A DNA stretch of 64,000 nucleotides from positions 2,403,501 to 2,467,500 of the forward strand of contig JAGI01000002.1 in NCBI GenBank assembly GCA_000526575.1. The letters run 5' to 3'. Made by a program: the position numbers and the translations under genes. Position 1 is the stretch's first letter; every line of letters starts with the position of its first letter. The stretch is from Clostridium sp. 12(A) (GTDB taxonomy: Bacteria; Bacillota; Clostridia; Lachnospirales; Lachnospiraceae). The notes under the pieces were generated by a model. That model was not told where the DNA came from. It did not search any database and saw only the letters and a program-made list of their open reading frames with translations. Of the stretch, positions 17,424-56,355 are shown piece after piece.

Positions 17424-17432
17424 AGGTTATAT

Positions 17433-23189: not shown

Positions 23190-23239
23190 GATAATCATTA
23201 TAAATAAATTACAAAAGATTCATCCGTTCAATGTAAAGA

Positions 23240-25082: not shown

Positions 25083-25154
25083 AATGGAACCTTATGATTC
25101 AAAAAATTTATTTTAATCCAGTATTTTATTATATTCTATTAATTACATGAAAAC

Positions 25155-25196
25155 ACCTCCAAGTAGGACTATAATTATTACGTCCTATTTGGAGGT
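25155..25196. repeat. Inverted repeat, 15-base arms
   Basis: ACCTCCAAGTAGGAC (25155-25169) pairs with GTCCTATTTGGAGGT (25182-25196), one G:U pair, 12-base AT-rich loop. It lies about 190 bases beyond the 3' end of the large GH59 gene. It could be a terminator without T-run or the remains of an element end. Confidence 0.6.
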
Positions 25197-25384
25197 TGAA
25201 TATTACTAATTTAAGCTTTTCTCCTGTGAAATTTTACATGCAGCTGATTTTCTCATTTGACAGGGCGCGTATTGATATTTTCTACATGCTCTTATGATAA
25301 CATATACTTACTGGTATATTTATTAATACACAAGTAAATTAAGGTAGTCACTCAATCTTCTCTCATTCTATATCTTTTGGAAAT

Positions 25385-31528: not shown

Positions 31529-32353
31529 TTTTCGTTCCTCCCCAATGTTGATTTGATAAATTGGATTTGAGCTCATTTTTTGTGGATTGGTGGCTTGTGA
31601 GATATAGGTATAGAATTGTAATACTTTGGGTTCATTTGGTTCTGCTTGCTGAAAATGAGCTTGTTGCTCGACTGATTGCAGGAAAATTTTATGAGTCATC
31701 AATAATTAATTAAAATAATCGGTTATATGTTTTCTTTACCTGCAATTTTATCAATATATCTTTGTTACCTCCTTTCTGAATGTATATTGTTTTATTTTAT
31801 CAGTATGTTTAGGGATTTTACATGTAATTAATTATGAGGGTACGGACAATTTTGGAGGAATATTACAGGTTTTTTGATAAGTTGAAAGAGGTGATAATAT
31901 ATTCATGTAGTTTTCTTATTTTCTTGCATTTTATTCCACATAATAACTATTAAGTGGAATAAATCATTAATCATATCTTAGTACAACAATTATAAGAAAT
32001 TCTATCAAAAAACAGAGTTTATACTAGTTGTTTTTAATATACTCCATTATTGCAGAAGTTGTTTAATAACATTAGTTATACAACCCGTTGCAATCATGTT
32101 TAATGTTATTGATTTTTATTTCATTGCTTTGTAAACTTACGACACTAGTTGATTTATATATAAGATTTATTTGAAATTATTAAAATTATTAAGTACATAA
32201 TTTGGTTAAGACCCAGAATCGTTTACTTTTCACCTATACTCTAGTATAATGAAATTACTTAATCTAGGTGGTAAAAAATAAATTATATTATTAATAGCAA
32301 AATTTATATTTTATTATCACTTTACATGTCGAAAAGGAGTTAACATATTAATT
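31529..32353. other. 825-base AT-rich divergent intergenic region
   Basis: It separates the GH59 gene from the second glycan locus. It must hold the GH59 promoter and leader: AGAAAGGAGGTAAC near 31768-31781 (minus strand) looks like a ribosome site but leads only to a 14-codon frame. No RNA gene or longer frame is seen. Composition shifts here from the moderate GC of the left part to strongly AT-rich. Confidence 0.55.
32222..32250 (+). promoter_or_regulatory. Promoter candidate for the plus-strand glycan genes
   Basis: TTTACT (32222-32227), 17-base spacer, TATAAT (32245-32250). It lies about 105 bases before the nucleotidyltransferase start. Confidence 0.55.
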
Positions 32354-37439: not shown

Positions 37440-37533
37440 GACCATGTACCTCCTTGAATGATATACTTATTATACCACAAAGGAGACCGCAAAGCCAGTA
37501 AATAAGCGGTTCTGCGTGTACTTTATCAGATGC

Positions 37534-37887
37534 TTAAAAGGGCTTTTTGGCAACGGGTTTAATTGCCTTTGGCTGCTCAATAGAAAGACCTTCCATAAGC
37601 CAACGGAATTCCTGTCTGGTCAAATTTCTAACATCTTCTGAATTACGTGGCCACTGGAAACGGCCGGAATCTAACCGTTTATAAAGTAACACAAAACCAT
37701 CTTTGTCAAAATGCAGTGCCTTCAGTCTGTCGCATCTTTTTCCGCAGAAAAGAAAAAGGGAATTACTGAAAGGATCTAACTCATAGGTATCCCGGACAAT
37801 TGCCATAAGACCGTCTATGCTACGCCTCATATCGGTGTAGCCGGCCACAAGAAATATCTTTGCCACGCCGGAGAGATCACCTAGCAC
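37534..37887 (-). CDS. tnpB: IS66 accessory protein TnpB (copy 1)
   Basis: A 117-residue IS66 Orf2 protein with the family signatures VAGYTDMRRSIDGLMAI, PFSNSLFLFCGKRCDRLK, GFVLLYKRLDSGRFQWP and the C-terminal LTRQEFRWLMEGLSI. It is needed for transposition in IS66 elements but its mechanism is not known. Overlaps tnpA by seven bases, implying translational coupling. The C-terminus ends in a short basic tail. Confidence 0.95.
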   Translation of the reverse strand: MLGDLSGVAKIFLVAGYTDMRRSIDGLMAIVRDTYELDPFSNSLFLFCGKRCDRLKALHFDKDGFVLLYKRLDSGRFQWPRNSEDVRNLTRQEFRWLMEGLSIEQPKAIKPVAKKPF

Positions 37888-38246
37888 AGTTGTCGCAACG
37901 CATTTAATGTTGCTGTAATAATGGCGGCATCTGCATTGTTACTGATAGCCAAAACAAAGCCATTGTATTCCAGATGGATTGCAATCCGATCCGTTTGTTT
38001 TTTAGGAAGAACTGCTTTTGTTTCTTGCAGTTCGTTGTAGTGAATTGGTACAACTTCTGTTTTCTCTAGAACTTTTGGAACAGAGTCAGGAATCATAGAG
38101 GCTTTCTTCCTCAGCCGCTTTATATTGTAATAAAAAGAGCTGGTAGGTATACCATTCTGACTGCACCAGGCGTAATCAGATAAGCCGCTTACGCGGCACT
38201 GCTGGATGCAATCCATCCAGTATTCATCTTTTTGAGCTTTTGTCAT
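37881..38246 (-). CDS. tnpA: IS66 accessory protein TnpA (copy 1)
   Basis: A 121-residue IS66 Orf1 protein. The N-terminus (YWMDCIQQCRVSGLSDYAWC, then TSSFYYNIKRLRKKA) is a helix-turn-helix region typical of the family. The C-terminal part ends in a hydrophobic strand and ALRQLC, the usual ending. GGAGG lies just upstream of the ATG. The region between it and the right end holds two TTTTACT(T/C) boxes on the minus strand that may form its promoter or operator. Confidence 0.92.
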   Translation of the reverse strand: MTKAQKDEYWMDCIQQCRVSGLSDYAWCSQNGIPTSSFYYNIKRLRKKASMIPDSVPKVLEKTEVVPIHYNELQETKAVLPKKQTDRIAIHLEYNGFVLAISNNADAAIITATLNALRQLC

Positions 38247-38446
38247 ATTTTAAAATCCTCCAAGAAAATATGGAGTAAAATGATACAAAAGTTTGAAGTA
38301 AAATAGCAGTGAAATGCTACAACCTTTGTTGTTCAAGAACAGAACTTAGAGTGAATTACTCCAACTGTCCTTATTTTACAGCAAAAAAAGTCAATTAGCA
38401 CGACGGTAGATTATGTTGCGCTTACTATAGGAATGTAGACTCATCT

Positions 38447-38560
38447 ATGGATTCCCTGACTTTAACTACTCATCAACGAAACCACAATTACTGGCTTTCT
38501 CGAACTCGAGATTGCAGAGCGAGTGGAGAGACCGTTTCTTGCGGGTGCAAAACCTGCTAA
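38447..38560 (+). pseudogene. Start of a decayed IS66 tnpA split by IS66 copy 1
   Basis: A 37-codon frame MDSLTLTTHQ...CRASGETVSCG. It lines up with TnpA of copy 2 (MDHLTVATDF...CRASNQKVSDW): same start MDxLT, the Trp, Arg and CRAS...VS..C all in register. The 19 bases between the palindrome and the ATG also match copy 2 in length exactly and at 14 positions, once copy 1 and one target repeat are removed. So copy 1 jumped into the leader of an older relative. The frame stops early at TAA. Confidence 0.75.
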
Positions 38561-38574
38561 GGAAAGTCAAGAAT

Positions 38575-38632
38575 AAAAAGGCATCATTAATAAGGAACGA
38601 GAGTTGCTCCTTCCTTAGAATGAGGCCTTTTT
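38575..38632. terminator. Bidirectional hairpin terminator
   Basis: AAAAAGGCATCATT (38575-38588) pairs with AATGAGGCCTTTTT (38619-38632), with AAGGA/TCCTT inside. It lies just after the 3' end of the IS110 fragment. Confidence 0.75.
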
Positions 38633-38645
38633 GTTAGCTTTATAG

Positions 38646-38849
38646 TTAATTCGTCAGATAGGCATCCCTAACCTTTGCGTAATAAATATGAAAGAATTTA
38701 TTCAAACCCGCGATTTTTGCAACCTTCTTAGGTTTGCCTTCACTTTTTTTCTTTTTCACGTAGTCATATACAGCGTTATCAGTTGGTTTCTGCCTCGAAA
38801 ATGAGGCAATTATTTCATATCCTACTTTTCTCAAAGATTTAGATCCACG
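38646..38849 (-). pseudogene. C-terminal fragment of an IS110-family transposase
   Basis: 67 residues open up to the edge of IS66 copy 2, beginning RGSKSLRKVGYEIIASF and ending GLNKFFHIYYAKVRDAY. The block EGKPKKVAKIAGLNKFF is the usual IS110/IS1111-type ending (KxYKVAxxAxxNKLLRxIY). The N-terminal and catalytic parts are missing; the break coincides exactly with the left inverted repeat of IS66 copy 2, so that insertion or a later deletion removed them. Confidence 0.8.
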
Positions 38850-38922
38850 GTAAGCGTCAAAAGTGTCGGTGTATATTTTTTCACTTTTAATTGTGAGTTA
38901 ATGTCTCTAATTTTAAAAGTCT

Positions 38923-38942
38923 TAAGGCACTTAAGTACCTTA
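38923..38942. promoter_or_regulatory. 20-bp palindrome upstream of tnpA (copy 2)
   Basis: TAAGGCACTTAAGTACCTTA, 19 bases before the tnpA ATG and conserved with 35761-35780. Its position fits an operator for transposase control. Confidence 0.5.
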
Positions 38943-38961
38943 AAGGATTGGAGATTTATCT

Positions 38962-39336
38962 ATGGATCACTTAACCGTAGCAACTGATTTCCACAAACTC
39001 ATTCTTTGGATTGAACGGATTCAGGAATGCAGGGCAAGCAATCAGAAAGTGTCTGATTGGTGTACCGCTCATGATGTCAGTATAAAATCCTATTATTACT
39101 GGCTTCGCAAGATTAAGCGCGAAGCGTTTGATGCTATTCCTGCTGAAAGAGAAACTAAAGTTCCAACAGTTGCCTCCCGGCCCTCTATGTTTGCTGAAAT
39201 GCCGCATACAACTGCCAATTTCAGCTCATCAACCGCTGTCATCATCAGACTTGGAAACACAACTCTGGAAATCCAGAATGGTGCGGACCAAGAAACAATC
39301 GAAAATCCCCTTCGTACCATCAGGCATCTATGTTAG
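38962..39336 (+). CDS. tnpA: IS66 accessory protein TnpA (copy 2)
   Basis: A 124-residue IS66 Orf1 protein: helix-turn-helix region LWIERIQECRASNQKVSDWC with SYYYWLRKIK, a variable middle, and the C-terminal IIRLGNTTLEIQNGADQETI then LRTIRHLC. GGATTGGAG lies eight bases before the ATG. Intact, although the element's tnpC is broken. Overlaps tnpB by seven bases. Confidence 0.92.
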   Translation: MDHLTVATDFHKLILWIERIQECRASNQKVSDWCTAHDVSIKSYYYWLRKIKREAFDAIPAERETKVPTVASRPSMFAEMPHTTANFSSSTAVIIRLGNTTLEIQNGADQETIENPLRTIRHLC

Positions 39337-39686
39337 GCGACATTTCAAAGGCAAAACATATCTATCTTGCCTGCGGTTACACGGATATGCGCAAATCCAT
39401 TGATGGCCTGTCCGCCATTGTACAGCAAAACTTCAGACTTGATCCTTTTTCCAACAGCCTGTTTTTATTCTGTGGACGCAAATGTAACCGCATTAAAGCT
39501 CTCTTCTGGGAAGGTGATGGTTTTGTCTTACTTTATAAGAGGCTTGAGAATGGAACATTCCAGTGGCCCAGGACACAGGCTGAAGTACGGCTGATTTCAG
39601 GGCAGGAGTTTAGGTGGCTCATGGAAGGGCTGTCCATTAACCAACCAAAAGCAGTGAAGAAATCTCAGCCGGAAAGTATTATATAA
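39330..39686 (+). CDS. tnpB: IS66 accessory protein TnpB (copy 2)
   Basis: A 118-residue IS66 Orf2 protein with ACGYTDMRKSIDGLSAIV, PFSNSLFLFCGRKCNRIK, GFVLLYKRLENGTFQWP and GQEFRWLMEGLSI. Closely parallel to the copy 1 protein, with clear differences along its length, so the two elements are relatives and not duplicates. Intact frame. Confidence 0.94.
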   Translation: MLGDISKAKHIYLACGYTDMRKSIDGLSAIVQQNFRLDPFSNSLFLFCGRKCNRIKALFWEGDGFVLLYKRLENGTFQWPRTQAEVRLISGQEFRWLMEGLSINQPKAVKKSQPESII

Positions 39687-39773
39687 AAGTCCTCCAAATG
39701 TCGTATTTACTGGATTTTACGGCATCTTTATGGTATAATTATGACAGTTAAAAAGCAAAGGGACTGTTATTAA

Positions 39774-41187
39774 ATGGAGCATAACAATCAGGTTGAAAAT
39801 CTCGAAAACCATATCGCTGAGTTGGTAAAAGAGAACCTTCTTCTTCATGAAAAGGTTACTTTTCTGACCAGAAGATTTATGGCAGGACTACGGAGTAGAC
39901 ATCATCTCTCGGACTCGAGGGACAGATGTCTCTTTTTGATGAAGCGGAAGTCTCGGCAGATCCGAAGGCTGCAGAACCGAACTTAAAAGACGTTGCCTCC
40001 TACCGCCGCCGGAAGCATAAAGGGCAAAAGGAAGAACTGTTAAAGGATCTCCCTCATGAAAAGAAACTCTGTACTCTTGCGGAAGAGGATCGTTTCTGCG
40101 AGACCTGTGGCACTCCCCTTGTATCTGTTGGGGAAGAATTCGTCCGCACAGAGATTGAATTTATTCCTGCCAAAGTACGTGTAATTGATTATTACCGTGA
40201 GACCTTTGAATGCAGAAAGTGCCGTAAGGAAGGAAAAGGAATGGGAAAACCTATGAGCAGCCTTAAGCCGTGCAACGATGTCAAACTGGATCCTTACCAG
40301 TTATCGTGACTGGCTTTACCCGGTGGTTGGGCTTCTTCATAAAAAACTGTTAGAACAGCAATAGCTTCACATCGATGAAACGCCCGTACAGGTCATGAAT
40401 GAACCGGACCGGAAGAATACAACGGATTCTTATATGTGGGTTTACTGCTCCATCAAAGACTTCGGGCAGCCAATCAGCCAGTTCGTATATCAGCCAGGGA
40501 GGAGCGGAACATATCCTCAGGAATATCTGAAAGGATACCATGGATTCATTCATACCGATGCTTACAAAGGCTATGAAAAAGTATCCGGTATTACCCGGTG
40601 CATCTGCTGGACCCATCTACGGAGATACTTTGTTGAAGCACTTCCCAAAGATGTCGACAGCCCGGAAGCAACCATTCCAGCCCAGGCAGTCAAATATATC
40701 AACCAGCTTTTTGAGATTGAGAAAAAACTGGAGGTTCTATCCCAAGCAGGGCGGAAGGAACAGCGTCTGGTACAGGAAAAGCCTGTACTGGATGGCCTTT
40801 TGGTCGTGGGTAAAAGAGACCTCACCGAAAGTCCTTGCGAGTTCTAAACTGGGAAAAGCCTTTCAGTATGCGAATAACCAAAAAGAAGGACTGATGAATT
40901 ATCTTCTTGATGGCAACTGCAGCATATCAAACAATCTCGCAGAAAACAGCATCCGGCCATTTACAACTGGCCGGAAAAACTGGCTGTTCTCAGGAAGTCC
41001 CAAAGGAGCAGAAGCAAGTGCGGGTATCTATACTTTAATAGAAACGGCCAAAGCCAATGGATTAAATCCATGGAAGTACATAAAGTTCATTCTCAGCGAT
41101 ATTCCCAGAACTTCATTTCTTGAATATCCAGAATATCTGGAAGAACATATGCCATGGGAGCCGATGATTCAAAAACTTTGCCGTTAA
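39774..41187 (+). pseudogene. IS66 transposase tnpC (copy 2), multiply disrupted
   Basis: Read in pieces it gives an IS66 TnpC: coiled coil MEHNNQVENLENHIAELVKE, then a one-base loss near 39870 (the RRLYGRTTE region), a stop at 39896, GQMSLFDEAEV, a zinc region FCETCG...CRKCRKEG, an internal deletion near 40273 that joins SSLKP to ATMSNW and drops roughly 50 residues around the expected PLYRQEQ block, a stop at 40362 before LHIDETPVQVM (first Asp), HTDAYKGYEKV (second Asp), a one-base insertion near 40795 and the rest with SISNNLAENSIRPF (Glu). At least three frame changes and two stops, so it cannot make an active enzyme. Confidence 0.92.
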
Positions 41188-41253
41188 AAGACAGCTTTCA
41201 ATTATAAACAGAGGCTGTCTGTTTTTCTATACACCAACTTATTTGACACTTAC

Positions 41254-43215: not shown

Positions 43216-43290
43216 ATGTCTGATAACAATATACAGTTAAACCACGAACTTATCCATAATGAATTGAAAAATTGTAACCACATAGTTTAA
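43216..43290 (+). pseudogene. Possible N-terminal stub of an IS256-family transposase
   Basis: 24 codons MSDNNIQLNHELIHNELKNC then a stop. It resembles the first residues of IS256/Mutator-type transposases (pattern NNIxLxxELIxxELKNLV). Nothing of the rest of the gene is seen. Short, so tentative. Confidence 0.35.
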
Positions 43291-43404
43291 GGGTGGATTT
43301 AAATTAGCGTCATTTATCGCTACAATTGTTATCTGGAAATGCGAGCACTTTACTCCAATCCCTTGCGAGAATGTAAGCATTTTACTCTATTTCGGAGACT
43401 AGCA

Positions 43405-43700
43405 ATTATGAGATCAAAACGAATTTATGCTCATCATGGAGTGCCGGCAAAAGGGCCTCTCCGACTATTAATGGTGCCACATGAATGATATTAATCCAGG
43501 CACCTTTTAAATACTGGATCAGTAGACTTCGTAAGTGAGGAATGGTAATTCCCATGCCATTTGATCAAGGAAAGAAAAAATCAGTTCCTTTACAGGAAGT
43601 AGTCAAGGTTAACTTAATACCAGATTCGGCAGCAATGCCCGCTCCCTTAAGGAAGGCTATTTTGTTACTTTGTCAGAAGGTACCTTTTGAAACGTCCTTG
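43405..43700 (+). pseudogene. Relic of a further IS66 tnpA
   Basis: Across frame changes and two stops it reads FMLIMECRQKGLSDY, stop, WCHMNDINPGTF, frame change, KYWISRLRK, stop, GMVIPMPFDQGKKKSVPLQ and VNLIPDSAAMPAP. ECRQxGLSDYxWC...INPGTFxxWxSRLRK is the IS66 Orf1 helix-turn-helix region. Two CxTTTACTC boxes lie upstream (near 43348 and 43380), as in copy 1. Confidence 0.75.
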
Positions 43701-43722: not shown

Positions 43723-45087
43723 TTATAATATAATACAGCCTATTATTTTCTTATCCAGACTATAAATAGTTTCTATTTGATTGTCAATATCTTTATATTT
43801 TGATACACCATATTTCTCAACTAGAATAACAACGTCAATAGTTGGAAGTTTGGTTAGTGTTTCAGGGTTTCGATTTATATCTGGTCCCACTACAAAAGTT
43901 AAGTTACTAAAGGTACCCTTAAGCTCACTTTCAATGCTCTTTAATAAATCGAGTGCTATTGTTCCAGTTAAAAATATAGTCTGATCCTTTTCCGTATATA
44001 TAGAAATACTGGCAATAATTCGCTTCAGAACAGCTTCCCTAGAGAAGATCTGCTTTCCTTCAATTTTATTAAGCCAATTATCAACTCCAGAGAGTTTTCT
44101 GTTTTTCTCTTCTTTAGGATATTCACCAAATATTTTTATTCCAAAACGACTTACAAATTTATCAGCTGAATATAATTTAGGATTGATAACATATATCAAG
44201 CATAAAAAGAGTACTACTAAAAATACTCCAAAAGTACCTCCCATAATACTGTATTTGATTGCAGATTTAATCAGGCCTATGAAAGAAAGATCATTAGGTT
44301 TTTGAGGTTCCTTTAAGTTATGTAATTCCAACTGAGTTTCTACCATGCTTTTTTTCATCGCAGACAATTTTTCTATTCTCTCATTCTGAAGCTCTGCCAA
44401 TTTCTGATCTGCCACCATATTTGTCTCTCTATTCATATAAATAACGCTGTGTGCTCTAAGATTGCTTTCCACATCATCTTCACTTGCTTTAACACTTTTT
44501 AAGATACTGTCTAATATTTTCTGAGCTCCCTCCTCATCTTTATACGTGACTGATACTGATATCATATTTCCATTATAATCTGCCTCGATATTAAGCAGTT
44601 CCCTTAAATAATTTATTTCTATGTTATTTTCTTTACAAGTTTCTTCAAGAGAACTTTTACTTTTTATAATAGCAGAATATACTTTCACCAAACTATCTAC
44701 TGGATCCACAGTATTAATTATATTATTTTCTTCATCTAATTTAATAAATATGTTTATATTGGCTACCCATTTATTGTATGGATCCAACTGAAATAAAATA
44801 GATTTTTTTTCATAATCCTTTTCATAATCAATATTCTGAGTAAGTGTATCAATTTTTCTCTCATACCCTTCTTTCTTCACTTGATAACTCCTAGAATCAG
44901 AATCATAATTTTCTAGTAGATTGGCCATATATTTCTTATCCTGAGATTTCATAATTCCTTCGCTTAATTTATATCCCCCAATTAATGTGGCAAAAATAAC
45001 AGCTATAAGGAAGACTGGACGCCATCTATTTAGTATGTAAAACATTAAATTTTTCAAGTCTATTTCCTGCTCATATGAAGTATTCAT
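43723..45087 (-). CDS. Wzz/CapA-type chain-length protein with degenerate tyrosine-kinase-like domain
   Basis: A 454-residue membrane protein. Start ATG 45085-45087 is chosen for GGAG six bases upstream. IDLKNLMFYILNRWRPVFLI opens the Wzz domain, whose first membrane helix is about residues 15-35. A long extracytoplasmic coiled region (70-260) follows, then the second helix (about 275-300). The cytosolic tail of about 150 residues ends like a BY-kinase (VVILVEKYGVSKYKDIDNQI, IGCIIL), with a strand IFLTGTIALDLLKSIESEL where CpsD-type kinases have the P-loop. No GxGKS/T motif is present. It would set polymer length but should not hydrolyse ATP. It lies 23 bases downstream of the sugar transferase. 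Confidence 0.85.
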   Translation of the reverse strand: MNTSYEQEIDLKNLMFYILNRWRPVFLIAVIFATLIGGYKLSEGIMKSQDKKYMANLLENYDSDSRSYQVKKEGYERKIDTLTQNIDYEKDYEKKSILFQLDPYNKWVANINIFIKLDEENNIINTVDPVDSLVKVYSAIIKSKSSLEETCKENNIEINYLRELLNIEADYNGNMISVSVTYKDEEGAQKILDSILKSVKASEDDVESNLRAHSVIYMNRETNMVADQKLAELQNERIEKLSAMKKSMVETQLELHNLKEPQKPNDLSFIGLIKSAIKYSIMGGTFGVFLVVLFLCLIYVINPKLYSADKFVSRFGIKIFGEYPKEEKNRKLSGVDNWLNKIEGKQIFSREAVLKRIIASISIYTEKDQTIFLTGTIALDLLKSIESELKGTFSNLTFVVGPDINRNPETLTKLPTIDVVILVEKYGVSKYKDIDNQIETIYSLDKKIIGCIIL

Positions 45088-45110
45088 TCCATTCTCCTTT
45101 GTATTTTTGC

Positions 45111-46529
45111 TTATCTGGATCCTTTTCCAGTTAGTACGACCCAAATTGTTAGTATCAAAATCTTTATATCTTTTAAAATTGACCAATCGTCAATATACTG
45201 CATGTCAAGTTTCACTACTTCATCAAAATCTTTAATGTCGCTTCTGCCGCTTATTTGCCATAGACCAGTGAGGCCTGGCGTCATACTAAGTCGACATTTA
45301 TGCTTTGTCTCATAACGCTCATATTCATCAACAGTTGGCGGCCTTGTTCCTACTAGGCTCATATCTCCACGCAAAACATTCCAAAACTGTGGGAGTTCAT
45401 CAATGCTTGTCTTACGTATAAAACGACCAATATGGGTTATTCTTGGATCATTTTCCAATTTAAACATTAAACCTTTTACTTCGTTTTCTTTCATTAGTTC
45501 TTTTTTTCTGTGCTCTGCATCCTGATACATGGAACGAAATTTATAAAATGTAAACTTTCTACCATTTTTTCCTATCCTAGTCTGTCCAAAAAATGCCGGA
45601 CCAGGAGATTCTAACTTTATTAAAGGTGCAATAAAAATCGTTACAATACATAATATAATAATCCCCACCAAGCTACCTATAATATCTAAAATTCTTTTTG
45701 CAGCAACCTGTCTATTAGAAAAAATATTTCTAGCAAAGGTGACCACTGAATATTTTCCAACTCGATTTAGTGTTTTTTTTCCTCCCACTTTAATATCAAA
45801 AATATCTATATTTACATCTACAATAATTCCCATATTTTTCATTTCTGCAACCCATTGCTCCAAAAGCTTATTGGAAATTGCAGAAGTATCATTAATAAAT
45901 ACTTCATCTACATTATGATGAACCACATAATCAATTATTGTTTCCTTATCTGCAACAACTGGCATACCACATTGCGCTTCTCCCACTAAAGACTTATCAA
46001 TTAAGGCAATCCCCGTTATAATACGATTCCACTCGTTATATTCAATGAAATTTTTGATTACACCTTCAACTTTTTCTGTAGTCGTGACAACAAGTAATCT
46101 ATTGCTATATTTACTTGTTTTATAAATTTTCAACATAAAAAGCTTGAATAACATTCTGCCTATAAATATGAAAACCACACTTATAATAATAAAGTATCCA
46201 TAAAGCAGTCTAGATAATTCGCTACTTCTATGTATCAAAAATAGTGTCACAACCCAGAGAATGGAAAAAGCTGACTGCCCCCGAATCACTGAACCTATTT
46301 CATCAAGACATCCCCTTCGAAAAAAATGCCTGGTGGTATTAGTTATAAAAATAACCAATACATATAATAAGGTTATGATTATTATCTGCCAAAGATTGTC
46401 CATATTTTTATTAATACCCAAAAACAAACCGTATCGAATCGCAAATGCTAGATAAGTACTTATCCAAATACAGATAATATCTATAAATGATATCAGTATA
46501 TTTTCAATCGTCTTTCTCTTTTGATACAT
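45111..46529 (-). CDS. Polyprenyl-phosphate sugar-1-phosphate transferase (initiating enzyme, second locus)
   Basis: A 472-residue enzyme of the same superfamily as 10648-12099, with four or five N-terminal membrane helices, a central Rossmann-like domain, and the catalytic C-terminus: KRILDIIGSLVGIIILC, GQTRIGKNGRKFTFYKFRSM, IRKTSIDELPQFWNVLRGDM, LVGTRPPTVDE and MTPGLTGLWQISGRSD. The GTRPPT motif is typical of galactose- or glucose-specific EPS initiators (CpsE/WelB-type). It should prime the second polysaccharide. GGGGA precedes the ATG. The chain-length gene follows it, a standard EPS order. Confidence 0.93.
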   Translation of the reverse strand: MYQKRKTIENILISFIDIICIWISTYLAFAIRYGLFLGINKNMDNLWQIIIITLLYVLVIFITNTTRHFFRRGCLDEIGSVIRGQSAFSILWVVTLFLIHRSSELSRLLYGYFIIISVVFIFIGRMLFKLFMLKIYKTSKYSNRLLVVTTTEKVEGVIKNFIEYNEWNRIITGIALIDKSLVGEAQCGMPVVADKETIIDYVVHHNVDEVFINDTSAISNKLLEQWVAEMKNMGIIVDVNIDIFDIKVGGKKTLNRVGKYSVVTFARNIFSNRQVAAKRILDIIGSLVGIIILCIVTIFIAPLIKLESPGPAFFGQTRIGKNGRKFTFYKFRSMYQDAEHRKKELMKENEVKGLMFKLENDPRITHIGRFIRKTSIDELPQFWNVLRGDMSLVGTRPPTVDEYERYETKHKCRLSMTPGLTGLWQISGRSDIKDFDEVVKLDMQYIDDWSILKDIKILILTIWVVLTGKGSR

Positions 46530-46971: not shown

Positions 46972-47436
46972 TCACTCTATCAACCACTCAATAAAGTCTC
47001 TTACAGCACCATTACCACCTTCATGTTCAGCCCTAAAATCTGCAATATCGCACACCTTTTTGACTGCATCTCTGGGGCATCCCACAATGCCACCAGATAC
47101 CTTCACCAGTTCCATGCAGGATACATCATTAAGATCGTCCCCAATGTAGGCAACTACCGAAAGGTCATCTGTAATTTCTCTTAGTTTCTCAATTTTGTCA
47201 GTAACCCCCTGATACACGTCTACTACACCAAGCTCCTTACAACGATTCAATACAATATCAGACTTACGGCCAGTAATAATCACGGGGATAATACCAGCAG
47301 GTATTGCTAAATCATGGATTCCGCATCCATCTTTTATATTGAAGGCTTTTAAAATTTCACCACTATTTCCCATATAGATTTTTCCATCAGTAAGGGTACC
47401 ATCAACATCCATTACTAGATATTTTACATTTTTCAT
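46972..47436 (-). CDS. kdsC: 3-deoxy-D-manno-octulosonate-8-phosphate phosphatase
   Basis: A 154-residue HAD phosphatase of the C0 (KdsC/YrbI) group. Motif I is VMDVDGTLTDGKIYMG, motif II is in IPVIITGRKSD, the Lys of motif III is in VTDKIEKL, and motif IV is YIGDDLNDVSCM. This short, capless form acts as a tetramer on Kdo-8-phosphate; N-acylneuraminate-9-phosphatases share the fold. Its neighbours kdsD, kdsA and kdsB favour Kdo. AAAGGAG precedes the ATG. A 416-base gap lies upstream, before kdsD. Confidence 0.93.
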   Translation of the reverse strand: MKNVKYLVMDVDGTLTDGKIYMGNSGEILKAFNIKDGCGIHDLAIPAGIIPVIITGRKSDIVLNRCKELGVVDVYQGVTDKIEKLREITDDLSVVAYIGDDLNDVSCMELVKVSGGIVGCPRDAVKKVCDIADFRAEHEGGNGAVRDFIEWLIE

Positions 47437-47852
47437 TTAACTCTCCTTTGCATAGTATACATATTAGTAGCTACTCGCCTCTCACCCAGCTTGAACATCA
47501 AAAAGGACATGCAGAAAGGAGAAAGTCATTGCCAAAAGAATATTTATTTTAAAATGTAATGTCCTTCTCTTTGTTGTAAAAATCAAAAACTTTCATTTCA
47601 GACACCGTAGCCATAATTCCAGTTCTTCACCACCAATCGTACTCTGAATATTGATATACTTATTACTCGATTCGAACTTGACATCTTTTCGACAGCTCGC
47701 TTTATATGTCTCAATACTAGCATAAAGCCGTCTATCATTTTGCATCATCTATCTTTATAATTAGCAGGAATAAATTTCTTTAAAAAATTATATGTAGTAG
47801 TGCTTAATTCTTTAACAAAATTTAGTTTCGTCTTTTACTCTCTCTAAGTATG
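47437..47852. other. 416-base gap between kdsC and kdsD with possible decayed coding
   Basis: Mostly stop-rich. One 50-codon frame (47593-47745) is described separately. A second short stretch just upstream of it (about 47747-47815, ELSTTTYNFLKKFIPANYKD) is in another frame. Together they suggest the remains of one gene lost from inside the Kdo operon. Confidence 0.45.
47593..47745 (-). pseudogene. 50-codon remnant frame inside the Kdo operon
   Basis: ATG to TGA, with protein-like composition (SNKYINIQSTIGGEELELWL). No good ribosome site. Upstream coding-like sequence is one frame off. I recognise no family; it might be the tail of a lost glycosyltransferase, but that is only a guess. Confidence 0.3.
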
Positions 47853-48818
47853 TCAAGCAACAATACCTGCTTTTACGATCTGTTGCCAGGTAATAGTCCC
47901 CACAAGTACATTTTCAGAATCCACAACAGGAAGATTATTAATACTATGGCTTTTGATAAAATGAAGAGCGTCAATTGCAAAACGGTCCTTTGTAATGCTC
48001 ATTGGGGAAACAACCATTACCTCCTCCACAGTTACACTATAAATATCAACAAACTTCTCAATTATTCTTCTAAGATCACCATCTGTGAGAATACCTAATA
48101 GCTTTCCTTCATCATCAACAATCGAAACAATTCCTAGTCCTTTTTGAGACATGACTGAAATTGCATCCATTAATAATGTCCGAAAAGATACTTTAGGTAC
48201 CTCATCACCATGAGCCATTAAATCATCAACTTTAAGAATAAGCTTCTTGCCAAGTGATCCTGCTGGATGGAACTTACCAAAATCTGCATCCTTAAACCCA
48301 TAAATTCCACTTGCCACAACTGCAAGAGCATCACCATAGCAAAGAAAAGCAGTTGTACTTGAGGTCGGTGCCAATCCAAGATAACAGGCTTCTTCGAACT
48401 TCGGCAGTACCTGAACAATATCAGATGCCTGAGCAAGAGATGAATTTGCATTTCCGGTAATACCAACTAGTGTTGCACCAATCATCTTAATATTAGGAAG
48501 AATTCTTACAACTTCATCACTCTCTCCGCTATAGCTAATTGCAATAATCACATCATTTTCCGAAATCATACCAAGATCACCATGCATAGCTTCCCCAGGA
48601 TGTAAGCAGAAAGATGGGGTACCTAAACTGGCAAATGTTGCTGCCAATTTTGCAGCAATATGGCCGGGTTTACCCATTCCAGTAATGATAACTTTACCTT
48701 TACAGCCAGTAACTAAACCCAAAATTTTAACAAATGTATTATCTAAAGCGTCTCTTGTCTTCTTTAATGCCTCTATTTCTATATCAAACACACGTTTTCC
48801 GTCAGCAAGCATATCCAT
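47853..48818 (-). CDS. kdsD: D-arabinose-5-phosphate isomerase (SIS plus two CBS domains)
   Basis: A 321-residue KdsD/KpsF enzyme making arabinose-5-phosphate from ribulose-5-phosphate, the first step to Kdo. The SIS domain (about 30-180) has KVIITGMGKPGHIAAKLAAT, HPGEAMHGDLGMI, AISYSGESDEVV and the family's PTSSTTAFLCYGDALAV. Two CBS domains follow (DLMAHGDEVPKV and EVMVVSPMSITKD). Start taken at ATG 48816-48818, five bases after AAGGA; a start six codons earlier overlaps no better site. It is 24 bases from kdsA. The capsule-type KpsF and the housekeeping KdsD cannot be told apart by sequence. Confidence 0.94.
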   Translation of the reverse strand: MDMLADGKRVFDIEIEALKKTRDALDNTFVKILGLVTGCKGKVIITGMGKPGHIAAKLAATFASLGTPSFCLHPGEAMHGDLGMISENDVIIAISYSGESDEVVRILPNIKMIGATLVGITGNANSSLAQASDIVQVLPKFEEACYLGLAPTSSTTAFLCYGDALAVVASGIYGFKDADFGKFHPAGSLGKKLILKVDDLMAHGDEVPKVSFRTLLMDAISVMSQKGLGIVSIVDDEGKLLGILTDGDLRRIIEKFVDIYSVTVEEVMVVSPMSITKDRFAIDALHFIKSHSINNLPVVDSENVLVGTITWQQIVKAGIVA

Positions 48819-48842
48819 AAAAATCCTTCTTTCCATCCATTC

Positions 48843-49619
48843 CTAATGTACCGCATCGTACACTTTAACAACACGCTTTAGCAACTCTTCAAACTCGTCC
48901 AATTTTACCATGTTCGGTCCATCCGATAAGGCACTGTCAGGATCTGGGTGAACCTCAAAGAACAGAGCATCTGCTCCAACTGAAACCGCAGCCTTTGCTA
49001 AAGGTTCAACATTTTCTCTATTACCGCCAGTAATAGTACCTTTACCACCGGGTTTCTGAACACTGTGAGTTGCGTCCATTACAACAGGATAACCAAATTT
49101 CTTCATCTCAACAATACCAGTCATATCAACTACAAGAGTATTATACCCAAAACTGGTCCCACGCTCACAAAGCATGATATTTTTGTTACCGGATTCCTCT
49201 AGTTTTTTAACAACATTGGCCATGTCCCAAGGAGCCAGGAACTGGGCCTTCTTAACATTAATCAGTTTTCCTGTCTTCGCTGCTGCAACAAGCAGATCAG
49301 TCTGGCGGCACAGGAAAGCAGGAATCTGAATCAGATCACATACTTCCGCTACTTTCTCGGCCTGCCACGGCTCATGAATGTCAGTCGCAATCTTCAGACC
49401 ATAAATATCCTTCACTCTTCTCAAAATACGAAGCCCATCTTCAATTCCAGGACCTCTGTAAGAGGAAATACTAGTACGATTTGCCTTATCAAAAGATGCT
49501 TTGAAGTAATAATCTAAATCCAATCTCTCTGCAATTCCCTTAATGGTTTTTGCTATCTGCATTACATTTTCCTCTGACTCGATAACACAAGGTCCTGCTA
49601 TTAAAATAAATTTACTCAT
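48843..49619 (-). CDS. kdsA: 3-deoxy-D-manno-octulosonate-8-phosphate synthase
   Basis: A 258-residue KDO8P synthase that joins phosphoenolpyruvate and arabinose-5-phosphate. The N-terminus [14 protein letters not shown], then [55 protein letters not shown] and [11 protein letters not shown] are all KdsA blocks. Cys11 in GPCVIES is the metal ligand of metal-dependent (Aquifex-type) enzymes, where E. coli has Asn; the late Glu in FFEVHPDPD and Asp in LSDGPN fit the same site. So this should be a metal-dependent class. It begins one base from the kdsB stop codon. Confidence 0.97.
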
Positions 49620-49620
49620 A

Positions 49621-50358
49621 TCAAATGCTCTCCTTTTCTAATTCTTTTTCAACCAAAGCAATCTGTTCTGGTGCATCTACGCCAACAGTCTGCCATTTTG
49701 TTTCTTTTACTCGAACTTTATATCCGTTCTCGATAGCACGAAGCTGCTCTAAAGATTCCGAAAGTTCAAGTTCTGTTTTATCCAGCTCACTGAATTTCAC
49801 TAAGAACCACTTCTTATAGCCATATGCACCAATATGTTTATAGTGAGTTCTTCTTTTTCCGTCCCGCTCATAAGGAAGTGTGTGGCGAGAGAAATAAATA
49901 GCGTCACCATTTACGTCAGTGATTACCTTCACCACGTTAGGGTTATTTAATTCTTCCTCTTCCTCAATCTTCTTTTTGAGTGTTCCCATATAAACTGATT
50001 CAGAATCAAATGTGCTTATCAAATCCATAACCATTTCTGGCCTGATGAGTGGCTCATCTCCCTGAATATTAAGTACAATATCTTCGTCATTTAATTGCAA
50101 GATATCTGCGCATTCAGCAAGTCGATCTGTACCACAGGCATGTGCTGATGATGTCATAAGGGCCTTCCCTCCGAAAGACTCTACCGTAACAAATATGCGC
50201 TGGTCATCAGTGGCGACATATACACCATCTAGTTGTGTCACCTTACTTACATTTTCATAAACCCATTGAATCATTGGCTTACCAGAGATCAAGGCCAATG
50301 GTTTACCTGGAAATCTACTCGACTGATATCTTGATGGAATAATTGCGTAAGTCTTCAT
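49621..50358 (-). CDS. kdsB: CMP-Kdo synthetase (3-deoxy-manno-octulosonate cytidylyltransferase)
   Basis: A 245-residue cytidylyltransferase activating Kdo as CMP-Kdo. Visible blocks are [18 protein letters not shown] (CTP-binding loop), [40 protein letters not shown] (metal-binding Asp), [25 protein letters not shown] and [13 protein letters not shown]. Length and motifs are those of KdsB rather than of NeuA. It sits tightly between kdsA and the flippase gene (gaps of one base each), a clear operon. Confidence 0.97.
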
Positions 50359-52027: not shown

Positions 52028-53344
52028 CTAGTTAAATTTTTTACTTCTTATACACCGTAATCTTGGTAGAATTCTAATCATTAATATAATAAGAAATATA
52101 TAGACTGCATTGGTAATCGTTATTGCCCACATCGTTTGACAATAATAAAAGCTCATTACAAAAACATAATTGAAATACATCATTAAAATTATTGAAATAT
52201 CTTTTCCTTTTTTTATAATTCCCTTATAAAGAATATGATTAAACCAACAATAGATAAATATTGTAAAAATAAGCATACCTATAAATCCATAGTCATGATA
52301 CGGACCCTCAAACCAAGAGAAAACATTACCTGCGAAATTACTATTTCCTCCAACATAAATAAAATTATTATTATATTGAGGACTATATCCTAAGTCTTGT
52401 AATAAACTTGTTAATGTGTTTTCTCCTATTAGAGTATTTTTTGCATGAACGCTAATAGGATCTGCTATGTATTTTGAAAACAAATAAACTGGACTACCAA
52501 TATAGTAGGTTATATATTCCAAGAAAGTACGGTTCGCTGTAGAAGTGTTAACTTTCGTAAAAACCCTCGATAAATAAAAAAGCGCAACCATTGCTATACC
52601 AAATATTACAAAATACTTAATAACTTTTTTAAATTCTTTCATTTTAATATTTTTCGACTGATACATCATAGAAAGTACAGCAGCATAGATAGCCAGAAGG
52701 TTCTTAAGTATTCCTATTCTATTGCCTGCGAAGAAAGTGACAATAAAATAACATATAATTGGTATAAAGTTCATAATCTGAGATTTAACTTTTACCTTAC
52801 ACAAAATAATGTTCTTAGCTACTACATAAACGTAAAAATAAAATAAGATCATTAATACCCTATAAAAAATTTTTTCTAATATATTTCCAGTAGACGTTGA
52901 ATCATATTTATTTAATCCTATTACATTAAGGCCCGTAGCACCTAAAATTTTTCCTCGTGTAAAAACAGAATATACGTATACCATCATTATTAATATACTC
53001 GAGAGTATAATAAATCCATTAATAAAGCTGTCAATATGTATAGGATTTTGTATCTTTTTTTCATTAAGCTGCCTGATATAATTAGTATAAGAGTGTTTTT
53101 TTTTCGTATAAAAAATTTCTGGTAATAACATAGCTAAAAACCCACTGGTGGTGACCGCCCAAGCTTTTATAGAGTATTCAACCTCCCAATAATGAATATT
53201 ATATATAACACAGATCGTTGATAGCGTGAACATAGCATAAGATAAAAAAGATGGAGACATTAAGTTTCCATTTGAAATTGTGTAAGAAATCGATAGAAAG
53301 AACAACTCCGTAAAGAATAATAAAAATATGTAGTTAGCTGACAT
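52028..53344 (-). CDS. O-antigen-polymerase-like membrane protein (Wzy candidate)
   Basis: A 438-residue integral membrane protein with about eleven to twelve hydrophobic helices and one larger extracytoplasmic loop (about 275-350, SPVYLFSKYIADPISVHA to FSWFEGPYHDYGFIG). This loop plus the motif near YHDYGFIGMLIFTIFIYC is typical of the oligosaccharide repeat-unit polymerase family. It would polymerise flipped repeats. It is preceded by a 63-base gap from the WbsX-like gene and followed by a 246-base gap before the flippase. Wzy proteins are poorly conserved, so the call rests on topology and place. Confidence 0.8.
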   Translation of the reverse strand: MSANYIFLLFFTELFFLSISYTISNGNLMSPSFLSYAMFTLSTICVIYNIHYWEVEYSIKAWAVTTSGFLAMLLPEIFYTKKKHSYTNYIRQLNEKKIQNPIHIDSFINGFIILSSILIMMVYVYSVFTRGKILGATGLNVIGLNKYDSTSTGNILEKIFYRVLMILFYFYVYVVAKNIILCKVKVKSQIMNFIPIICYFIVTFFAGNRIGILKNLLAIYAAVLSMMYQSKNIKMKEFKKVIKYFVIFGIAMVALFYLSRVFTKVNTSTANRTFLEYITYYIGSPVYLFSKYIADPISVHAKNTLIGENTLTSLLQDLGYSPQYNNNFIYVGGNSNFAGNVFSWFEGPYHDYGFIGMLIFTIFIYCWFNHILYKGIIKKGKDISIILMMYFNYVFVMSFYYCQTMWAITITNAVYIFLIILMIRILPRLRCIRSKKFN

Positions 53345-53407: not shown

Positions 53408-54547
53408 TTATTGAACAATTTTCTTCTTAAGAGCCTCTAGGTACCCACGTCCAAACTTAATATCTGGCTCCATATAATTACCTTCTCCCCACTCATTCCA
53501 TGCCTGCAAGAAAATAATTTTATGTTCCTGCTCTTTTTTTTCTACAATTTTCAAAGCATTATCTATTGCCTTCTCGAATTTTTCCGGTGTACTGTTATCA
53601 TAAATTCTGGCATCTTTTCCTGATCTCGGAGTTCTGTCCAAACGAGGAATAATCTGTGGATAAATGTACTCTCTCTCCTCTGCCTTATTATGAAAATTTT
53701 GCATTATAGCATCATAATCATATCTCAATACCGTGAAATTCCCTGCAAATTTTCTTATAATAGCTCTTAACGCTTTTTTAGCAAATCCGACGACCTTTGT
53801 TTCAGCATAACGTTGTGTATCTGAATTTATTCCATCGAATCCCATATCAAGATATTTTTGGTACCTTTCAACTGATTCATCTTTGACGGTTGTATTGCTC
53901 ATTGATAACTTACCCATTGATGAGACACGCGCAACAAAATGAATTCCCTTCAATCCACTGTCTATTGCCAATTTCTGCCATAATTCAATAAAATGAGATG
54001 CGTCAGGAATTGCTTCAGGATCAAATATTAAAAATAAGGGTTTTCCGTCAATAGTGATATATCTATGATCTTTAAAAGCCGATAAGATTGAGTTAAAATG
54101 CAAAATATAATCATCATCACCTGGATATGTTTGCTCCAGAAATGTTATATCATTTGTAAAATGCTCCGTCTTCTGCCAAGTTTTATTGGACCAGGAATGG
54201 TTGGCCCAGCCTAAACAAAACGGATAATCAGGTTTGCCAGATTCTAAAACTTCATTAAAAGGTCTTTCAAGAATTCGTTTTCCGTTGCCGAACCAGTAGT
54301 GCCAATAACAAAATCCTTCTACGCCATATTCTCTAGCCATCTCTGCCTGTTCTTCTCGAGCTTCAGGTAGTCGTAAATCATAAAATCCCAAATCCATAGG
54401 TATCTGTGGTTGATAATGTCCTTTATATAAAGGGGTTGCTTTTGCAACATTTGTCCATTCTGTAAAACCCTTGCCCCACATCTCATTATTTTCTTTTACT
54501 GGATGGAATTGTGGTAAATAAAAAGCAATTACTCTAGCTTTATTCAT
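53408..54547 (-). CDS. WbsX-like protein with GH99-type barrel
   Basis: A 379-residue protein of the WbsX/GH99-like family found in O-antigen and capsule loci. Marks are the N-terminal VIAFYLPQFHPVKENNEMWG and KGFTEWTNVAKATPLYKGHY, then YDLRLPEAREEQA, GVEGFCYWHYWFGNGKR, FCLGWANHSWSNKTW, and the C-terminal IIFLQAWNEWGEGNYMEPD. The fold resembles endo-mannosidases, but in these loci the proteins are often treated as glycosyltransferases; the real reaction is uncertain. No signal peptide, so it acts in the cytosol. It overlaps the DUF115 gene by eight bases. Confidence 0.88.
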   Translation of the reverse strand: MNKARVIAFYLPQFHPVKENNEMWGKGFTEWTNVAKATPLYKGHYQPQIPMDLGFYDLRLPEAREEQAEMAREYGVEGFCYWHYWFGNGKRILERPFNEVLESGKPDYPFCLGWANHSWSNKTWQKTEHFTNDITFLEQTYPGDDDYILHFNSILSAFKDHRYITIDGKPLFLIFDPEAIPDASHFIELWQKLAIDSGLKGIHFVARVSSMGKLSMSNTTVKDESVERYQKYLDMGFDGINSDTQRYAETKVVGFAKKALRAIIRKFAGNFTVLRYDYDAIMQNFHNKAEEREYIYPQIIPRLDRTPRSGKDARIYDNSTPEKFEKAIDNALKIVEKKEQEHKIIFLQAWNEWGEGNYMEPDIKFGRGYLEALKKKIVQ

Positions 54548-55352
54548 TTATTTCTACAACCTCCTCTAAATTCATACGAGGGAACCACTCTAATTTGCCA
54601 CCTCGTGTAACATTAATTATTGAAATATTATGGTCTTTTGCATAATCTCTGGCAGCAATATATGCTTTATTCATTCCCTCAATATTAGCTATAACCTCCT
54701 TTGGATTTTTATCAGTAAAGAAATGACTATTAACAGTTTCATCTTGTATAACATTGCCTTTTTCATCATATGTTAAAGAGTAACTATGATCCATTCCTAA
54801 CAAATAAATATATCTATACCCCAAATATACTGCCAATTGAATCATGGTATATGTAATAGTGGGCATATTTATAATGTAATCAGAAACATCTTCACTAAAA
54901 GCGATCTTTTTATTTAAGTCATTTCTACGTGCGCGTATACATACTGCATGAGGATTTTTCATGCCTCTTTTTCTCCAGTAGTATTCACCAATAAACATAT
55001 ATGGAACTTCCATATTATCTAATGCATCACCTGTATCGGCATATCTATCTTGGATTACAAAATACTTTGGTCTCCAACAAGTTTTTTCAAAAACCTTAAA
55101 TATTAAATTGGCCGCAAAACAATCTTGATCTTTTATCAATTCTAAATCATCAGTTGTAAGACTTGGCCCATTACCAATAATAAAACAACTCTTTCCTGAC
55201 GCAACATCTTTCATAGACTTTAATTTTTCATCATAATGTTTTATATTATTGAGTTTTTTGTAAAATCTCTCATTTTCAAATTCAATCAGATTAATGCACA
55301 ATTCGTGTAACCATTTTGTTTTTGTAATCACTTTTCTTAATTGAATATTCAT
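54540..55352 (-). CDS. DUF115/MptE-like protein, candidate CMP-sugar-dependent glycosyltransferase
   Basis: A 270-residue cytosolic protein. It carries SCFIIGNGPSLTTDDLELI (about 53-71), KYFVIQDRY, and YLGYRYIYLLGMDHSY (about 180-195). These mark the DUF115 family, which includes the Maf flagellar nonulosonate transferases. GNGPSL and LGxDxxY are also found in GT42 sialyltransferases, whose donors are CMP-sugars. Because the operon makes CMP-Kdo and no GT30 (WaaA) or KpsC/KpsS-type Kdo transferase is visible, this protein is the best candidate for the Kdo transferase. That is inference; some DUF115 proteins have other roles. Confidence 0.7.
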   Translation of the reverse strand: MNIQLRKVITKTKWLHELCINLIEFENERFYKKLNNIKHYDEKLKSMKDVASGKSCFIIGNGPSLTTDDLELIKDQDCFAANLIFKVFEKTCWRPKYFVIQDRYADTGDALDNMEVPYMFIGEYYWRKRGMKNPHAVCIRARRNDLNKKIAFSEDVSDYIINMPTITYTMIQLAVYLGYRYIYLLGMDHSYSLTYDEKGNVIQDETVNSHFFTDKNPKEVIANIEGMNKAYIAARDYAKDHNISIINVTRGGKLEWFPRMNLEEVVEINE

Positions 55353-55365: not shown

Positions 55366-56355
55366 TCAAACTAAATTTGTTTTTTTATACCACTGTATAG
55401 TTTTTATTATTCCTTGCTGCATTGAAACTTTAGGCAAAAAATCCAATTGTGCTTTAGCCTTTGATATATCATAAACGCGGTTAGTTATAGTAGCTTCAAT
55501 ATTCTTTTTTGTCACTACTGGTTTTTTTCTAATTGCATTAAATACTGCTTCTTCAGCTGCCGCTGCATAAATCATTATGTTAACCGGTACAGGAATTATT
55601 ATTATTTTTTTTCCAATCGTCTGCGCAATAGTTTTTCCCATTTCAGTGAAATCTATTGATCCATCTGATGTTAAAATATATGTTTCGCCTATCACTCCGT
55701 TGTCAACCAATTTTATTAATGCTTGTACAAAATCTGTAACATAGATATTAGATGTATAGTTATTACCGCTACCAATCTTAGGAAATATTCCTTTCTTGCA
55801 TAACTTTGCCAAAGTCAAATAAGAATACTCATGTTCACCCACTCCATATACCTTAGTTGGTCGAACAATTATGCATGGAAACCCACCTTTATAATAATCA
55901 TTTAGTAATCGTTCAGCTTCATATTTGGTAACTTGATAAGGAAGATAAGGAGAACATTGACTTTCTTCTGTAATAGGTGTTGTTTTTACAATCCCCATTG
56001 CAGCTATAGAGCTAACAAAAATAAACCTAGATACTCCCTTCTTTTTACTTTCATCAGCAATATTTCTCGTTCCTTCAACATTAACTGCTCTAAAAATCGA
56101 AAAACTTTCTTCACTCGGTAATTGATTTCCAACTTTGGCCACCATGTGATATACAATATCAATACCATCACAACAGCCATTAAGGCTATCTCTATCAGTC
56201 ACATCTCCTATAAAATATTCACAGGTATCTTTAAAAAGTTCCTTAGCCTTATTTAAATTTCTCACTAGTAAGCGAATCTTGTGCCCCTGTTCTAACAACT
56301 GGGGGATAAAATGCTCACCTATAAAACCCGTGCCTCCAGTTACTAATATATTCAT
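55366..56355 (-). CDS. NAD-dependent epimerase/dehydratase (extended SDR)
   Basis: A 329-residue extended SDR with Rossmann motif VTGGTGFIGEHFI, IGDVTDRDSL, Ser/Thr in FVSSIAAMG, catalytic Tyr and Lys in YQVTKYEAERLL (about 142-153) and RPTKVYGVGEHEY. The family covers UDP-galactose-4-epimerase-like and keto-reductase enzymes; GGTGFIG with a KVYG block fits a nucleotide-sugar reductase or epimerase. AGGAGGGC precedes the ATG. It is the first gene of the operon running leftwards through DUF115, WbsX, Wzy, Wzx and the Kdo genes. Substrate unknown. Confidence 0.88.
   Translation of the reverse strand: MNILVTGGTGFIGEHFIPQLLEQGHKIRLLVRNLNKAKELFKDTCEYFIGDVTDRDSLNGCCDGIDIVYHMVAKVGNQLPSEESFSIFRAVNVEGTRNIADESKKKGVSRFIFVSSIAAMGIVKTTPITEESQCSPYLPYQVTKYEAERLLNDYYKGGFPCIIVRPTKVYGVGEHEYSYLTLAKLCKKGIFPKIGSGNNYTSNIYVTDFVQALIKLVDNGVIGETYILTSDGSIDFTEMGKTIAQTIGKKIIIIPVPVNIMIYAAAAEEAVFNAIRKKPVVTKKNIEATITNRVYDISKAKAQLDFLPKVSMQQGIIKTIQWYKKTNLV

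Follow-up and report, generated by a model that had tools for sequence, protein, structure and literature searches.

A predicted CMP-Kdo pathway and a candidate CMP-Kdo transferase in a strain-variable polysaccharide locus of a Lachnospiraceae bacterium

Introduction

3-Deoxy-D-manno-oct-2-ulosonic acid (Kdo) is widely regarded as a marker of Gram-negative lipopolysaccharide. Here, a 64-kb stretch of DNA from Clostridium sp. 12(A), a member of the Lachnospiraceae, was analyzed (contig JAGI01000002.1, positions 2,403,501 to 2,467,500; hereafter the window, with coordinates counted from its first base). It stems from a 99.98% complete 4.6-Mb genome in 3 contigs. The window carries the genes kdsC, kdsD, kdsA and kdsB, which encode a predicted complete pathway to cytidine monophosphate (CMP)-Kdo, within a strain-variable polysaccharide locus. 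New here are a candidate for the transferase using CMP-Kdo, an MptE-like protein, and the breadth of the Kdo cassette.

Group 2 and group 3 capsules of Gram-negative bacteria are exported by an ABC system. In these capsules and in K antigens such as K13, Kdo is a constituent of the surface polysaccharide, as predicted for the window, but the Kdo transferases are retaining enzymes of the families GT99, GT107 and their kin (PMC12887879), whereas the window encodes a predicted GT42-like enzyme together with Wzx and Wzy. Diderm Firmicutes such as the Negativicutes and Halanaerobiales share KdsA to KdsD with the window. Their kds genes adjoin lipid A genes (PMC5007114), in contrast to the window's family, where the KdsA-bearing genomes had no LpxC match; the set that holds the window also stands apart in the KdsA tree. 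Among Gram-positive surface polymers, the teichulosonic acids of actinobacterial walls also contain a 3-deoxy-ulosonic acid; theirs is the nine-carbon Kdn, whereas the enzymes of the window are those of the eight-carbon Kdo (PMC7831098, PMC6801904).

One published case of a monoderm Gram-positive bacterium with Kdo genes was found. In Bacillus coahuilensis m2-6, kdsA, kdsB, kdsC and kdsD lie, as here, in a strain-specific island, which the authors read as laterally acquired (PMC4744853). There, kpsC stands alongside the kds genes. The genome studied here has no match to the corresponding family (PF05159), and the partner of the kds genes is an MptE-like gene in a Wzx/Wzy locus.

Several further enzymes transfer Kdo. 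KdoT of Acinetobacter acts in lipooligosaccharide synthesis (PMC12856342), and the plant GT29 enzyme RCKT1/MGP2, a member of a sialyltransferase family, is reported to be a CMP-Kdo transferase (PMC11288761). E. coli WaaZ and Maf use or accept CMP-Kdo and show weak sequence kinship to the MptE-like protein, which scored 29.4 bits against the WaaZ equivalog model TIGR04437, far below its cut-off of 200. The acceptor is the lipopolysaccharide core for WaaZ, flagellin for Maf and plant pectin for RCKT1/MGP2. In the open-licence titles and abstract beginnings that were searched, MptE-like (PF01973) proteins of Gram-positive capsule loci were not assigned to Kdo transfer, which is not proof of absence; among the matches listed, no title linked the DUF115 family with sialyltransferases, or Kdo with Lachnospiraceae.

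The kds genes and their products

The kds genes are arranged as follows.

46972 to 47436, minus strand: kdsC-type phosphatase of 154 aa; TIGR01670, 136.7 bits (cut-off 106.95); predicted to convert Kdo-8-phosphate to Kdo
47853 to 48836, minus strand: kdsD, arabinose-5-phosphate isomerase type; SIS domain (PF01380) and 2 CBS domains (two PF00571 stretches); TIGR00393
48843 to 49619, minus strand: kdsA, Kdo-8-phosphate synthase by TIGR01362; Cys11/His185/Glu222/Asp233
49621 to 50358, minus strand: kdsB, CMP-Kdo synthetase by TIGR00466

As the original prediction had it, all four genes are present as intact open reading frames (ORFs) on the minus strand, between 46972 and 50358. They had also been called contiguous with a Wzx flippase gene. 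This description holds for kdsD, kdsA, kdsB and wzx, which are spaced by 6, 1 and 1 bases, wzx adjoining kdsB. It is slightly generous for kdsC, which is separated from kdsD by 416 bases (47437 to 47852) without an ORF of at least 100 aa inside. The same gap measures 75 bases in a related locus (L013), and that of the window is perhaps a decayed insert.

The families were assigned with NCBIfam equivalog and subfamily models with curated cut-offs, and the domains with Pfam models. KdsA scored above two equivalog cut-offs (TIGR01362, 405.9 bits against 314; NF003543, 416.7 against 242), and KdsB above one (TIGR00466, 227.6 bits against 155.2). KdsC and KdsD passed at the subfamily level, i.e., YrbI/KdsC (TIGR01670) and KpsF/GutQ (TIGR00393, 307.5 bits against 203.7), respectively. 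At the equivalog level, KdsC remained below NF007019 (137 bits against 208), and KdsD below NF008141 (318.9 against 505) and NF008581. The closest relative of KdsA in the PDB by sequence is 1fwn (E 4.2e-93), and its nearest solved structures are KDO8P synthases. KdsB matched CMP-Kdo synthetases from E 1.3e-57, and NeuA-type enzymes at best with 5.9e-8.

Nonulosonate enzymes were considered for the four genes and discarded. The pseudaminate PseF model gave 32.1 bits against 227.6 for KdsB, and there was no NeuB among the 8 model matches of KdsA. A closer competitor is the KDN-9-phosphatase model, which KdsC matched with 108.1 bits, below the cut-off of 180. The prediction of Kdo rather than nonulosonate enzymes is thus borne out by KdsA and KdsB, which lie above the Kdo cut-offs and far above the nonulosonate models. 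KdsA had further been placed in the metal-dependent class for its Cys11. It carries C11, H185, E222 and D233, which we take, from Aquifex KdsA, to be the metal ligands and whose Cys/His/Glu/Asp set presumably defines that class. In an alignment of 119 KdsA rows, H185, E222 and D233 occur in 119/119 and C11 in 117/119, the remainder being one gap and one N (E. coli).

A tblastn search of genome contigs (E <= 1e-3) returned 485 related stretches, some of which may not be KdsA; the 80 best were retained. Because of this conservation and the model scores, chance resemblance is excluded. The scores support Kdo-type enzymes and a complete predicted CMP-Kdo pathway. Within the loci of the best 80 of these 485 stretches (L011 to L090), the CMP transferase is of KdsB type in 31 and NeuA-like in 42.

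The polysaccharide locus and a proposed mechanism

The kds genes are neighbored by genes for the assembly and export of a polysaccharide.

43723 to 45186, minus strand: Wzz-like chain-length protein (weak); PF02706, 21 bits, below the cut-off of 25.5
45111 to 46529, minus strand: phosphoglycosyltransferase (Bac_transf), candidate initiating enzyme of the block; PF02397, 230.3 bits
50360 to 51781, minus strand: Wzx-type flippase; PF01943, 107.4 bits (cut-off 28.2); NCBIfam Wzx_EPS equivalog not reached
52028 to 53344, minus strand: oligosaccharide repeat-unit polymerase (Wzy); TIGR04370, 121.4 bits (cut-off 40)
53408 to 54547, minus strand: WbsX-family protein; PF14307, 438.7 bits
54540 to 55352, minus strand: MptE-like protein, candidate CMP-Kdo transferase; PF01973, 48.3 bits (cut-off 34.6); predicted sialyltransferase-type fold
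55366 to 56355, minus strand: NAD-dependent sugar epimerase/dehydratase; PF01370, 130.4 bits
56943 to 57962, minus strand: GT8 glycosyltransferase; PF01501, 114 bits
57973 to 58527, minus strand: RmlC-type dTDP-sugar epimerase; PF00908, 241.6 bits

A flippase and a repeat-unit polymerase in one cluster mark the locus as Wzx/Wzy-dependent, and the exported-polysaccharide setting proposed earlier is supported by these two genes beside kds. The phosphoglycosyltransferase at 45111 to 46529 has two matches only in a second genome of the same species (G321), 31 and 43% identical (E 3.5e-45 and 6.7e-33).

Based on these families and their neighborhood, the following mechanism is proposed. KdsD would convert ribulose-5-phosphate to arabinose-5-phosphate, which KdsA would condense with phosphoenolpyruvate to Kdo-8-phosphate. 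KdsC would release Kdo, and KdsB would activate it to CMP-Kdo. The block's own phosphoglycosyltransferase would start a lipid-linked repeat unit, onto which the MptE-like protein, a putative inverting enzyme with a predicted sialyltransferase fold, would move Kdo. Wzx would then flip the unit and Wzy polymerize it, so that the monoderm Lachnospiraceae cell would carry the polysaccharide on its surface. The enzyme activities, the donor, acceptor and stereochemistry of the transfer and the presence of Kdo in the polymer are all predictions from sequence. As such, the Kdo polysaccharide is well supported. The whole account, from CMP-Kdo synthesis through MptE-like transfer and a Wzx/Wzy polymer to an exchanged block, is considered likely; confidence in it is lowered because the transferase step is itself probable rather than certain and because the motif check described below was negative.

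A candidate CMP-Kdo transferase

The protein encoded at 54540 to 55352 is a single domain of 270 aa and is annotated as MptE-like, i.e., as a 6-hydroxymethylpterin diphosphokinase (HPPK). Its predicted fold, however, is of the sialyltransferase/Maf type. A profile of the MptE-like family matches the GT42 sialyltransferase CstII and Maf in the PDB, and not HPPK. Both the predicted fold and the kinship to CstII place the protein among GT42-like enzymes. CstII was recovered by the profile only; a phmmer search of the PDB with a single MptE-like protein gave one match, to Maf (E 0.18).

Genomic linkage also points to a CMP-sugar donor. In loci lacking kdsA, genes for CMP-sugar synthetases lie near the MptE-like gene in 25 of 30 (five have no cytidylyltransferase), compared with 3 of the 40 flippase loci that served as controls. 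The linkage was also assessed with PF02348, excluding weak rows and part of the rows located on other contigs; five of the matches scored as near are weak (27.6-38.8 bits). The 40 control loci were hand-picked at about every third listed place in 38 genomes, none of which had a match to KdsA or to the MptE-like family. As many loci are truncated by contig ends, those of at least 18 kb were counted separately as well. Among the best 80 kdsA loci, 33 contain an MptE-like gene, a descriptive figure as the profile was built from kdsA loci.

Several observations weigh against the assignment. The MptE-like gene occurs in only 25 of the 53 well-flanked kdsA loci and is missing from 28, and its family also accompanies NeuA-like cassettes without kdsA. 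GNGPS, D102, D188 and H210 are conserved in the family, H210 being nearly invariant, but the profile alignment puts this histidine off the lid-loop histidine that we take to be the general base of CstII. Moreover, the CMP-binding motif (K/R)xHP, reported for sialyltransferases and for families of retaining Kdo transferases (PMC12887879), was found in 0 of 91 aligned MptE-like members.

The kdsA loci without an MptE-like gene offer a counterpart. A polysialyltransferase-like family is present in 9 of the 28 well-flanked loci of this kind and in 0 of the 25 with the gene (p 0.0016, for a pattern chosen after several gene clusters had been inspected). Such alternation is expected if every locus needs one CMP-ulosonate transferase. 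The protein at 54540 to 55352 is therefore put forward as a candidate CMP-Kdo transferase with good, though not high, confidence, its donor and acceptor being predicted from fold and neighborhood.

Overall, the polysialyltransferase-like family was seen in 11 kdsA loci (L038:8198-9286 and ten others), all of which lack a strong MptE-like gene; PF07388 was recognized in 1 of 2 proteins tested. In the genome of the window itself, another MptE-like gene adjoins genes for a CMP transferase and a NeuB-type synthase (G000:C2:2962260-2965442, L130), in a separate locus of nonulosonate type about 500 kb away.

A KdsA-free cassette was also observed. Its aldolase is HMGL-like and about 530 aa long, and is accompanied by an MptE-like gene, a CMP-sugar synthetase in 16/16 loci and a KdsC-like phosphatase in 11/16 (L140, L141, L147-L149, L151-L153, L156-L159, L161, L162, L166 and L168). 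The aldolase occurs in 16 of the 30 MptE-like loci that lack kdsA, in 4 of the 80 with kdsA and in none of the 40 controls, as counted with a profile built from five of these loci; PF00682 was found in 3 of 3 proteins tested. The cassette may represent an alternative way of making a 3-deoxy-ulosonic acid.

Envelope type and distribution of KdsA

The original prediction noted that no lipid A gene is seen in the window and proposed the complete genome as a check. LpxC and WaaA (PF04413) had no match in the genome; LpxA, LpxB and LpxD were not searched for. The KpsC/KpsS family (PF05159) was also without a match in the genome, and KpsC/KpsS was rejected as the Kdo transferase here. The same searches were positive in control genomes, namely 4/14 for LpxC, 3/14 for WaaA and 2/14 for the KpsC/KpsS family.

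True KdsA (E <= 1e-50) was found in 9 of 397 Lachnospiraceae genomes, including that of the window, and in 37 of 398 genomes drawn across the phylum. LpxC accompanies KdsA in 0 of the 9 genomes of the family and in 34 of 36 others. KdsA-bearing Firmicutes are thus of two kinds, with and without LpxC.

The KdsA tree of 119 rows mirrors this division in part. The window falls into a set of 84 rows with a modest branch support of 81 and many open forks inside, and this set includes 7 of the 9 rows of the family and none of the 28 LpxC-bearing rows. The KdsA phylogeny proposed as a check therefore separates the window from all LpxC-bearing rows, with the modest support given. Lachnospiraceae, Oscillospiraceae, Erysipelotrichaceae, Paenibacillaceae, two Actinomycetota and otherwise-named metagenome bins are mixed in the set. 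The other two rows of the family (L008 and L009, 54-55% identical to the KdsA of the window) group with Fusobacteria, and the rows of the two non-family genomes without LpxC (L211 and L223) group with LpxC-bearing ones, a misfit to a clean split. The tree was built with a quick method and its deep branches are weak. Furthermore, metagenome bins named Bacteroidales, Muribaculaceae and Treponema among the KdsA records may be binning errors.

A strain-variable block

The comparison with G321 by blastn delimits a block around the cassette.

31840 to 64000, no strand: strain-variable block, running about 9 kb past the window end

On its left, the window is 97.9% identical to G321 over 3901-19905 and 93.5% over 19906-31839. 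To the right of 31839, the matches within the window are limited to the pieces 38850-41253 and 43274-43648. Beyond the window end (L129), matches of 66-68% occur at 5015-5867 and 6586-8076, and 86% identity resumes at position 8961, about 9 kb past the window. By arithmetic on these matches, the replaced block measures roughly 41 kb in the strain of the window versus roughly 24 kb in G321. The G+C content is 43.5% in the left flank versus 34.0% in the part of the block inside the window. True KdsA (E <= 1e-50) was not found in G321. The kds cassette thus appears as part of a strain-variable polysaccharide block that, judged by these comparisons, is laterally exchanged, the locus being swapped between near-identical flanks.

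ORFs of putative IS66-type transposases, some of them short and broken-looking, lie at the left edge of the block (35844-41187). The G321-matching piece 38850-41253 falls within them, and related pieces are also present in the G321 locus.

Alternative explanations

A first alternative concerns the transfer of Kdo. Another protein of the block, such as the WbsX-family protein (53408-54547), a GT8 protein or some other, could add Kdo, the MptE-like protein having a different role, e.g., as a pterin or nucleotide kinase. The Pfam label of the family fits this explanation, as does the top Foldseek rank for 54540-55352, an archaeal HPPK; the 28 well-flanked kdsA loci without the gene and the absent (K/R)xHP motif point the same way. 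It is nevertheless judged rather unlikely in view of the strong linkage to CMP-sugar synthetase genes, the profile match to GT42 sialyltransferases with none to HPPK, and the polysialyltransferase-like family of the mptE-less loci. The kinship of the MptE-like protein to Maf by profile and fold, and the report of a Maf enzyme able to use CMP-Kdo (PMC11339370), raise flagellin or another protein as the acceptor in place of a polysaccharide. This is very unlikely for a single 270-aa domain whose neighbors are Wzx, Wzy and sugar genes; no flagellar gene was seen among the scanned neighbors, a genome-wide flagellin search not having been made.

The identity of the sugar and the type of cell were weighed as well. 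KdsA and KdsB may act on a different aldose phosphate, so that the product would be a derivative of Kdo or another ulosonic acid related to it. KdsC and KdsD below their equivalog cut-offs, and the pairing of KdsA with NeuA-like CMP transferases in 42 of the best 80 related loci, agree with such a product. We consider it improbable, as KdsA and KdsB both exceed their cut-offs, KdsD is present too, and the genome's one NeuB-family match near an MptE-like gene is the one about 500 kb from the kds block. A diderm cell with Kdo destined for lipopolysaccharide has its basis in the Negativicutes and Halanaerobiales, where kds genes sit with lpx genes (PMC5007114), and in the LpxC of most KdsA genomes from outside the family. 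For this genome it is hardly tenable and was rejected: LpxC and WaaA are unmatched in a nearly complete genome (with lpxA, lpxB and lpxD left out of the search), none of the nine KdsA genomes of the family has an LpxC match, and the kds genes are part of a strain-variable polysaccharide block in which no lpx gene was seen.

Implications

Should Kdo polysaccharides indeed be made by monoderm gut Firmicutes, finding Kdo in gut samples would not demonstrate lipopolysaccharide, nor would kds genes in a metagenome bin demonstrate a diderm. If the transferase assignment holds, a widespread family with the name of a pterin enzyme (2601 proteins match one query at E <= 0.001) would also gain a function. 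On balance, we lean slightly towards a broader reading, in which the MptE-like (PF01973) proteins of Firmicutes surface-polysaccharide loci would form a large family of CMP-ulosonate transferases with sialyltransferase fold. One branch would draw CMP-Kdo from KdsABCD cassettes circulating in gut Firmicutes, and another would act in an ulosonate route that lacks KdsA and has an HMGL-type aldolase. Acidic 3-deoxy-ulosonate polymers, including those of Kdo, would on this reading recur among the surface antigens by which strains of monoderm gut bacteria differ.

Other genes in the window

An LCP protein (PF03816) is encoded at 8716-10611, about 36 kb from the kds genes. As this flank is shared with G321, in which no kdsA was found, the gene is uninformative about a Kdo polymer specifically, and the wall linkage originally predicted for the polymer is a hypothesis. 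The left flank also encodes a radical SAM protein (2700-4094) that has a SPASM domain and fits the putative SCIFF maturase of the original prediction.

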